From Candidatus Enterococcus huntleyi (GTDB lineage Bacteria; Bacillota; Bacilli; Lactobacillales; Enterococcaceae): a stretch of DNA of 64,000 bases. This document shows, piece by piece, positions 28,644 to 31,497 of this stretch (the first letter of the stretch is position 1; every line of letters starts with the position of its first letter). The stretch is taken from the NCBI RefSeq assembly GCF_009933175.1, contig NZ_MAEJ01000008.1:1-64000 (forward strand), read 5' to 3'. The notes beneath the pieces are model-generated. The model ran no database searches. It was not told the origin of the DNA and saw only the letters and a list, made by a program, of their open reading frames with translations. The position numbers were made by a program, and so were the translations under genes.

Positions 28644-28811
28644 AATCGCATCCTCCTCCAGATAATCCAGCCACTCATTCTCTGAATTACTTTGGAAAAA
28701 GTATAGCACACGATCCACCACTCAGTGGGCTCCAATGCTCAAGGAAATCAATAAAATCAACAGCTAGAACATTCATCCGGCAAACAATTAACCATCGAAC
28801 TTTCTCAGTAC

Positions 28812-28963
28812 TTTCTTTACCCTTTTACTACATTTTCATCACAATTAATTCAAACTTATCCGTTATATTATATACATACCAACAAACAACCCTAACAATA
28901 ATACTTTTTCATTTTTTTAACTCCTATTGCCCACCAGCTACCCTCTGGTGGGCTATTTTTTTG
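28812..28963 (+). ncRNA. Candidate small RNA, copy 1 of duplicated module
   Basis: A promoter-like pair TTCAAA (28849-28854) and TATACA (28871-28876), 16 bp apart, is followed about 50 bp later by a perfect hairpin GCCCACCAG-CTACCCT-CTGGTGGGC (28929-28953) and a T-run. The predicted transcript is about 80 nt. Positions 28812-28953 recur almost unchanged at 29735-29874. Promoter, leader and hairpin are all conserved, which favours a functional unit over chance. Transcription is inferred. Confidence 0.45.
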
Positions 28964-29008
28964 TCAGTTGCCAGTTGCCAGTTCCGCTTACCAAGTATCG
29001 CAGTAGCG

Positions 29009-29268
29009 GAATGGTATGCGTAGAGCAATCCTGTGAATTGGCACAATTCACTTCCTTTAAACGCTCTTAGCTGCTCAATACAATTTTTAAAGATCCATTT
29101 TGTGGGATGGTATGCGTAGAGCAATCCTGTGAATTGGCACAATTCACTTCCTTTAAACGCTCTTAGCTGCTCAACTCTATAGCTGTACAACCATCTAGCA
29201 GAATGGTATGCGTAGGACAATAAAGAAAATGGTACATTTTCATTCCTTACCCGTCCCTAGCTGCTCAA
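29009..29268. repeat. Three structured repeats with 96-bp period
   Basis: Units start at 29011, 29107 and 29203, exactly 96 bp apart. The first two share an identical 68-bp core (ATGGTATGCGTA ... TAGCTGCTCAA). Each core folds into an inner hairpin inside an outer 4-bp stem. Inner stem: GTGAATTG-GCA-CAATTCAC in units 1 and 2, GAAAATG-GTA-CATTTTC in unit 3. Outer stem: GAGC/GCTC in units 1 and 2, GGAC/GTCC in unit 3. The bases differ but pairing is kept in both stems. This pattern indicates selection on RNA or DNA structure. An apparent 98-codon minus-strand reading frame across the units is not considered a gene. Confidence 0.75.
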
Positions 29269-29315
29269 TTCAACAGTTATAAAACCATCTAGTTGATTTC
29301 TCTATACTAGCTACC

Positions 29316-29576
29316 TCAAGTATTTTGTGAACCCCAACTATGCTCTCCAAATTTTTCTTTCATTTTTTCTTCAGAATAACTATTTTCCATGGAAAAATTT
29401 TTAAAGCTATCTTCGATTAATTCTCTATCATGCTCTCTTCCAACATTTTGGATATCCAGTATTATTTTTTCACCATCTTGTTTATAACCTACTACGTCTC
29501 CTACTCGTAAGTCACTTTCTTTTGGTAGAATAATGCCGATTGAGTTCCCAATTTTTCGGACCAATACATCTTCCAT
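29316..29576 (-). CDS. AbrB/MazE-like antitoxin, no partner visible
   Basis: 86 residues. GAGGAG lies upstream of the ATG at 29576. The N-terminal 45 residues match the swapped-hairpin AbrB/MazE DNA-binding domain ('VRKIGNSIGIILPKESDLRVGDVVGYKQDG'). The acidic C-terminus ('REHDRELIEDSFKNFSMENS') would be the toxin-binding tail in a MazE-type antitoxin. A toxin gene would be expected immediately downstream on the minus strand, but that space holds only the structured repeats. It may be an orphan antitoxin or a stand-alone regulator. Confidence 0.7.
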   Translation of the reverse strand: MEDVLVRKIGNSIGIILPKESDLRVGDVVGYKQDGEKIILDIQNVGREHDRELIEDSFKNFSMENSYSEEKMKEKFGEHSWGSQNT

Positions 29577-29734
29577 ATAATTTTTCTCCTCATCTAAGTA
29601 CGCTCTTACTTAGTTATAGTCTTTATTACAACTAAGCACAATGGAAATACATAGCTAGCATCAGAAAAGAAGGTAAAACAACTTTCTCGTTTCAATCAAC
29701 TTATGAAATTCTACTACAGCAAATTCCTTATAAG

Positions 29735-29880
29735 TTTCTTTACTCTTTTACTACACTTTCATCACAATTAATTCAAACTTGTTCGTTATATTATATACAT
29801 ACCAACAAACAACCCTAACAAAAACACTTTTTCATTTTTTAACTCCTTTGCCCACCAGCTACCCTCTGGTGGGCTTTATC
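29735..29880 (+). ncRNA. Candidate small RNA, copy 2 of duplicated module
   Basis: Nearly identical to 28812-28953. The promoter-like boxes TTCAAA (29772-29777) and TATACA (29794-29799) keep the 16-bp spacing. The hairpin GCCCACCAG/CTGGTGGGC (29850-29874) is unchanged, but the following T-run is poorer (TTTATC), so termination may be less efficient than in copy 1. Confidence 0.4.
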
Positions 29881-29907
29881 AGCTCCGCTTTTACAGGAAC
29901 ACCTAAC

Positions 29908-29966
29908 GGAATGACATGCTAAGAGCAATAGTAAAACACTACCTCTAACCCAAAATCTCAACTCTT
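29908..29966. repeat. Fourth, diverged structured unit
   Basis: Starts GGAATGACATGCTAAGAGC, similar to the 96-bp units. The inner hairpin is TAGT-AAAAC-ACTA (29929-29941) and the outer stem is AAGAG/CTCTT (29921-29925 with 29962-29966). As in unit 1, it follows the duplicated hairpin and a CCGCT...CGGA mini-stem, so the module was duplicated as a whole. Confidence 0.5.
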
Positions 29967-30000
29967 AACATTCCCCTACTAAACCAACGTTCCTATTCTA

Positions 30001-30976: not shown

Positions 30977-31036
30977 TCCTAATTTAATTGTCACCATATT
31001 TTAATTTTCAATCGGACGATAAATGACCTCTTTTTC

Positions 31037-31169
31037 CCACTAGTCTTCATTCGCACACTTTTCATGGTGAAAAAAGATTGATTTAACAGCGAAACCCAGT
31101 ATCCAATGGATTCTCGCAGTTTGAAGCACCTATAAAATCTTGTAAAACAGTGCGAATGAAGACTAGTGG
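31037..31169. repeat. Inverted-repeat element 1 (MITE-like, 133 bp)
   Basis: Perfect 20-bp terminal inverted repeats, CCACTAGTC... at 31037-31056 and ...GACTAGTGG at 31150-31169, enclose about 93 bp without a reading frame. The inside starts with a small TTTTCA-TGG-TGAAAA hairpin. A related element follows at 31318. No transposase is present, so this is a non-autonomous element or a structured intergenic repeat. Confidence 0.75.
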
Positions 31170-31317
31170 ACTATTTCTCGTTTCAAGTTAATTAACACTA
31201 ATAGTACCGAATGTATTTTCATGGAAAATCTCAGCACAATCCCTTCTCTATACGGTTCTATGACTTTTATGAGTTCCAAAAATCACATTTTTTGAGTAAT
31301 AAAGGACCTCTTTTTCC

Positions 31318-31461
31318 CCACTAGTCCTCATTCGCACACTTTTCATGGTGAAAAACGAGGTAAAAATGATGATTCTAGATGCAAAACCTAATAGGCAATG
31401 GAATCCTACTACTTTGTTCTCTGCTAAAATCCCAGAAAACAGTGCGAATGGCGACTAGTAG
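31318..31461. repeat. Inverted-repeat element 2 (MITE-like, 144 bp)
   Basis: Terminal repeats at 31318-31337 and 31442-31461 match in 17 of 20 positions and are nearly those of element 1. The inverted repeat extends outward to AGGACCT...AGGTCCT at about 31303 and 31472. The inner sequence is recognisably related to element 1 but diverged. The right end touches the terminator of the downstream gene. No other landmark is seen in the rest of 30977-31560. Confidence 0.72.
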
Positions 31462-31497
31462 AAAAAGGTCCTCACATTTTGCGAGGACCTTCCTTTT
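31461..31497. terminator. Bidirectional terminator beside element 2
   Basis: AAGGTCCTC pairs with GAGGACCTT around an ACATTTTGC loop, with runs of A and T on both sides. On the minus strand it follows the stop of the HTH gene at 31561. Its left arm is shared with the extended terminal repeat of element 2. Confidence 0.8.

Follow-up and report, generated by a model that had tools for sequence, protein, structure and literature searches.

The window, a 64,000-nt stretch of DNA (positions 1-64000 of its contig) from a 3.49-Mb Enterococcaceae genome (hereafter the host genome), holds an array of a structured repeat, the parts of which are collected in Table 1. The array is made up of one complete unit, two left-truncated units and a remnant, and it follows the terminator that closes an sRNA-like module, where a weak match to Rfam Ref84 ends at 28961. 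Over the whole window, units 1-3 were found by the covariance model R1 with E-values from 6e-19 to 5e-9, although the 40 copies from which that model was built include unit 1. In the covariance-model alignment, units 2 and 3 showed mismatches in helix 1, its left arm being missing. The 7-nt partial left ends ahead of unit 1 are not peculiar to this array, and identical remnants were also observed ahead of other arrays in the host genome.

Table 1. Features in and around the repeat array of the window.
Feature	Position	Strand	Evidence and remarks
sRNA-like module, first copy	28798..28962		
Terminator-like hairpin and T tract of sRNA-like module	28927..28962	+	inverted repeat I14; directly upstream of array
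Two 7-nt partial left ends (TGTCAGT, TGCCAGT)	28962..28975	+	sequence; abut first complete unit
Unit 1, complete (TGCCAG ... CTTAGCT)	28976..29072	+	covariance model R1: 106.5 bits, E 5.9e-19 over window
Helix 1 of unit 1	28978..29014	+	28978-28980 and 28982-28988 with 29005-29014; bulged G at 28981
Outer helix of unit 1	29021..29069	+	TAGAGC 29021-29026 with GCT 29063-29065 and TTA 29067-29069; bulge 29066
Inner hairpin of unit 1	29033..29051	+	29033-29040 with 29044-29051
Unit 2	29074..29168	+	64.7 bits; outer helix and inner hairpin intact; helix 1 left arm replaced
Unit 3	29170..29262	+	55.8 bits; outer stem and inner hairpin bases differ; helix 1 left arm replaced
Frame for 86-aa antidote-like protein	29316..29576	-	TIGR02609 doc_partner, E 1.8e-5, below cut-off
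sRNA-like module, second copy	29721..29881		
Degenerate remnant ('unit 4')	29878..29970	+	17.4 bits, filters off; no match with default filters
Another repeat with long inverted repeats	31031..31466		CCACTAGTCTTCATTCGCACA..

The sRNA-like module is composed of a promoter-like TATATTATATAC, a terminator (CATACCAACAAACAACCCTAACAA..ACTCCTTTGCCCACCAGCTACCCTCTGGTGGGC) and an anti-Shine-Dalgarno ACTCCTT. More copies were present elsewhere in the host genome, and five stood in tandem in a sister genome (L230); compensatory changes were seen in the terminator stem, and the Rfam Ref84 match of the module was sub-threshold. The 86-aa protein encoded between the two modules resembles addiction-module antidotes and has no obvious toxin partner. 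A type I toxin-antitoxin neighbourhood was considered and rejected, as no toxin frame was found next to the sRNA-like modules. Elements similar to the repeat with long inverted repeats occur beside unit arrays elsewhere in the host genome (L027, L044 and L045), and the sister genome carries a short tandem repeat of its own (L226:14000-14480, GTCTCCACTACGTTTCGCTCTCATCAACTTCTACGCATG...).

The original prediction had described 96-bp periodic repeats with compensatory changes in two stems. The periodicity was recovered exactly, with copies at 29004, 29100 and 29196 (spacing 96 and 96), and so were the changes: the inner hairpin reads GTGAATTG/CAATTCAC in units 1 and 2 as against GAAAATG/CATTTTC in unit 3, and the outer stem AGC/GCT as against GAC/GTC, which is far beyond chance. 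The fourth unit, said to keep both stems, did not survive the analysis; the inner hairpin was left unaligned, and the remnant retains part of helix 1 along with chance or residual outer pairing (TAAGAG/CTCTTA). Helix 1 (28978-28988 with 29005-29014) had been overlooked; it is part of the unit and also covaries. The two constant flanks were likewise placed within the repeat, since GGTATGCGTA joins helix 1 to the outer helix, and TAGCTGCTCAA consists of the right end of the unit and the first bases of an alternative left module that downstream units carry.

The unit is about 95-107 bp long and contains three helices, namely helix 1 and a two-part second helix. Complete copies extend further left than the original prediction had it, with TGCCAGTTCCACTTACC..GTAGTGGAATGGTATGCGTAG forming helix 1 ahead of it. 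In later array units the left arm is often replaced by another module (GCTCAACTCTATAG...), and the family is therefore modular. One array of E. hulanensis (L139:5208-5408) alternates two unit types (GTGTTGA/GAAATAGG and GGAATGA/GAATGAGG).

The earlier claim was to stand or fall with covariation among more copies, and this covariation was found to be significant. Across 40 complete copies from the host genome 93.9% of cells were paired, and two-sided pair changes occurred in 118 cells against 42 in shuffled alignments (0/500); when the partner was slid by 1-3 columns, such changes fell to 3-18. Helix 1 was paired in 96.5% of cells with two-sided changes in five of its ten pairs, the inner hairpin had them in five of eight pairs, and in the outer helix the pair columns 48-91 and 49-90 covaried. 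The same was observed with 41 copies from other species (alignment A4), where 96.1% of cells were paired, 98 two-sided cells stood against 28 shuffled (0/500), sliding reduced them to 6-24, and the pairs 10-37 and 52-107 showed all four Watson-Crick types across loci. Both alignments contain related copies, so the slide control carries more weight than the shuffles. The secondary structure of the unit is real and strongly covarying. A G-U pair was invariant in 41/41 copies from other species, and G-U cells exceeded A-C cells in the host-genome copies (31 vs 16); the fixed pair and the excess together favour the annotated strand as the folding strand, the excess alone being a weak indication. 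Rfam gave no match over the units of either subfamily, in agreement with the earlier failure to assign a known RNA family.

The region matched 67 places in the host genome by BLAST, about 75 unit matches were obtained by nhmmer in parts of that genome, and the covariance model built from the 40 complete copies found 78 copies in it at E 0.01 or better. No unit was detected by the covariance models in one other genome of the same genus. A second covariance model had matches in 42 of 105 Enterococcaceae genomes, belonging to 6 of 17 genera; the unit counts per genome are lower bounds, and many genomes had at least 37. Within a 149-genome sample of the order Lactobacillales all matches were in Enterococcaceae, with none in the other members of the sample. 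A pattern with free stem positions matched 99 stretches in named genomes, and all records among the matches listed were Enterococcus, including raffinosus, devriesei, hulanensis, avium, malodoratus, songbeiensis, dispar and larvae. Copy number at the glmU locus differs among species; one E. raffinosus genome had four complete units and a partial one there, and another genome so labelled had one. The repeat is thus a dispersed multi-copy family with head-to-tail arrays and a strongly covarying fold. The units at 28976-29262 are members of this dispersed repeat, not a local RNA gene, and no sign of a local function was found at the locus. The structured repeat of the original prediction stood, but its scope had to be widened, as the window units are one stop of a genome-wide and Enterococcus-wide family.

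The position of the units differed between the host genome and the other species. In most other species the right end of the unit, ..GAANAAGGA, is followed directly by the remaining Shine-Dalgarno sequence and the start codon, and a credible start codon lay 6-21 nt past the AGGA of the unit in 54 of 65 scored loci. The downstream genes, named by eye from the protein sequence with no family search, were unrelated (glmU, mutS, gyrA, dnaN, tsf, radA, fabI, plsX, mraY, uppS, purM, aguA and arcC). At one locus (L043:8362-8500, minus strand) a unit was located just upstream of a small frame for a one-helix membrane peptide (MSKVEFWMVVLTNIILILTIVHLSLAIIEKIKNLKD), whose resemblance to the small hydrophobic peptides of type I toxins is one of appearance alone. 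Host-genome units, unlike those of most other species, end in CCTAGCT. Their arrays are intergenic; among 36 cases in which both flanking genes were known, the array came after a gene of the same strand in 24. Of 28 first units, 10 were preceded by four or more T within six bases (background 9.8%, p = 2e-4). These T-rich stretches are typically terminator tracts, for example at 28952-28962.

Evidence of insertion came from an ABC-permease locus compared in 22 genomes of one genus. With junctions marked by a slash, the empty site of some relatives reads ..AGTGGA/GGATAAAAATGTTTAAG (short form GTGGA/GGATAAAAATG), and the filled site of others reads ..AGTGGA/TGCCAG...GAATAAGGA/GAATAAAAATGTTTAAG (short form GTGGA/unit..AAGGA/GAATAAAAATG). 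The junctions are exact, with at most GGA common to both and nothing further duplicated. The unit ends, TGYCAGT..GAANAAGGA, are not complementary, and hence there are no terminal inverted repeats. At prmA, intact or decayed units occupy the interval from the upstream stop codon to the start in E. hulanensis and several relatives, and other genomes have no unit at the site. Empty sites were not obtained for the host-genome copies, the sister genome being too diverged between genes (about 77% in genes) to place junctions. Insertion is precise and occurs beside a short motif, which in many species is the GGA of the Shine-Dalgarno sequence; it duplicates nothing beyond that motif, and the right end of the unit serves as the new Shine-Dalgarno sequence.

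From these comparisons of sequence, the units probably belong to a mobile-type Enterococcus repeat that is non-coding, non-autonomous and small (95-107 bp), a reading to which we give roughly two chances in three. The fold would then serve mainly as the recognition signal for a mobilising enzyme, probably on a single strand of the DNA; arrays may grow by local amplification and perhaps also by re-insertion at the right end of the unit itself; and copies would persist where they are least harmful, either at ribosome-binding sites that they restore or behind terminators. Neither an autonomous relative nor a linked transposase was detected. Among 234 helix-1 finds there was no autonomous copy with split ends, and the 12 finds that lacked a recognisable right half were mostly chance, truncated or contig-edge cases.

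The fold might also be that of a cis-acting regulatory RNA, in which transcribed leader units would control translation of the next gene by presenting or hiding the terminal Shine-Dalgarno sequence, with arrays acting like tandem riboswitches for a regulon. The sense orientation of the units and the Shine-Dalgarno sequence at their right end are consistent with this, as are the fixed G-U pair and a GA/GA step adjoining the covarying pair at the base of the outer helix. At mraY, moreover, 99% pairing and compensated C-G to U-A changes were maintained in three species that have few copies, which hints at selection in place. However, the downstream genes are unrelated housekeeping genes rather than one class, and host-genome units mostly lie behind same-strand genes, not before them. 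The structure has also been lost at two shared sites though the Shine-Dalgarno sequence persists. The ABC-permease insertion is common to eight species, with scores from 92 down to 32 bits; the inner hairpin is wholly gone in one copy, in others 3-5 pairs are broken or there are large gaps, and AAGGAG or an equivalent is still present in the decayed copies. The prmA copies showed similar decay (24-68 bits), and at the shared sites it is the inner hairpin or helix 1 that is lost. We consider a regulatory RNA distinctly unlikely. As for the functional structure claimed originally, a conserved and selected fold was upheld, but pairing changes alone do not show a functional RNA here, since the units insert as discrete elements and lose structure at some loci. 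Our reading is that the structure is selected mainly for mobility, with use or concerted evolution possible at some sites; this is the weakest step of the argument.

Within the mobile-repeat explanation, one sub-case is that an IS200/IS605-type single-strand transposase (Y1 HUH) moves the repeat, as with REP or palindrome-associated miniature elements, with its left cut beside GGA and its right cut at AGGA. Such an enzyme would account for strand-specific hairpins, exact junctions, head-to-tail arrays, the lack of inverted repeats and of duplication beyond GGA, and GTAG precedes the second helix in host-genome copies. The search for the enzyme pointed the other way. No REP-associated transposase was found, and the sole intact Y1 gene of the host encodes an ordinary IS200 enzyme (TnpA, 33.9 bits against a cut-off of 80 for REP_Tyr_transpos; one fragment is also present). 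Y1 genes occurred in 69 of 105 genomes, yet the unit-rich E. songbeiensis (G047, at least 37 units) had no Y1 match, although some genomes are incomplete (G047 is 88% complete) and absence of a gene there is not proof. The 31 Y1 loci scanned had no ends in common with the units, and the sole helix 1 match among them was an independent unit beside the host IS605 remnant (L050), outside the right-end hairpin of that element. A Y1 enzyme, together with these cleavage sites, is possible but somewhat doubtful. An IS605 right-end remnant or a TnpB guide RNA was rejected as the identity of the unit: at C30:127.5 kb a unit adjoins tnpB, but the right-end hairpin of the element stops before the unit.

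Both target classes, Shine-Dalgarno sequences and terminators, are mRNA signals, as would be expected of RNA-mediated insertion (reverse splicing or reverse transcriptase) directed at transcript landmarks. However, no reverse transcriptase match was found in the unit-rich genomes G094, G017, G059, G093 and G047, with the same caution about incomplete genomes, and a reverse transcriptase was rejected as mobiliser, showing no correlation with the units; we hold this route to be very improbable. Fainter still is the chance that the unit is a miniature transposon derived from a DDE-type insertion sequence, an origin that has been proposed for pneumococcal RUP and BOX. Size, copy number and intergenic position are similar, but TGYCAG at one end is not the inverted repeat of AAGGA at the other, and the duplication is at most GGA.

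Several known repeats were compared with the unit. EFAR repeats are cited as an enterococcal MITE family (De Gregorio 2009, through PMC3733652), and Efa-1 of E. faecalis is described as 163 bp long, with 65 copies and two adjacent stem-loops (PMC2267715). By the descriptions consulted, both are like the unit in being short structured intergenic Enterococcus repeats, and Shine-Dalgarno insertion is not among the features that those descriptions give; EFAR repeats may, going by description only, be related to the unit. REP sequences resemble it in their hairpin, multi-copy nature and extragenic position, and in the GTAG tag of host-genome copies. GCGTAG stands ahead of the outer helix in most of those copies, and in the Shine-Dalgarno subfamily TACGGC is commonest and GTAG is mostly missing. 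REP elements, however, are 20-40 bp long, whereas the unit has three helices in about 100 bp and all its arrays are direct; the REP/RAYT assignment suggested by GTAG and the hairpin was rejected, the host genome having no RAYT gene. BOX, RUP and SPRITE of S. pneumoniae are modular and structured with tandem internal modules, sometimes inside operons (PMC3049150). They share modularity, structure and tandem internal modules with the unit, but BOX and RUP have insertion-sequence-like terminal inverted repeats, and the unit has none and targets Shine-Dalgarno motifs. Miniature elements derived from IS200/IS605 likewise insert beside a short motif without duplication and have strand-specific subterminal hairpins, but no parent element with ends matching the unit was found. 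REP/RAYT and inverted-repeat MITEs thus differ from the unit in their defining features, and the way in which it inserts is similar in logic to that of IS200/IS605 elements, although the unit is not placed among them.

If the mobile-repeat reading is right, it carries a caution: where copies are dispersed, pairs may covary strongly through selection on mobility, and such covariation is not in itself proof of a regulatory RNA. A tentative and rather doubtful extension is that the repeat represents a genus-wide class of mobile element that both targets and carries Shine-Dalgarno sequences, so that insertion into an operon leaves translation intact, and that is mobilised by an enzyme of neither Y1 nor reverse-transcriptase type. 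A search of the literature for repeats that target Shine-Dalgarno sequences returned nothing. If the mobile-repeat reading holds, dozens of Enterococcus genes, many of them essential, would owe the ribosome-binding site from which they are translated to a member of this family, and the family would offer a natural experiment in how elements enter operons without breaking them.
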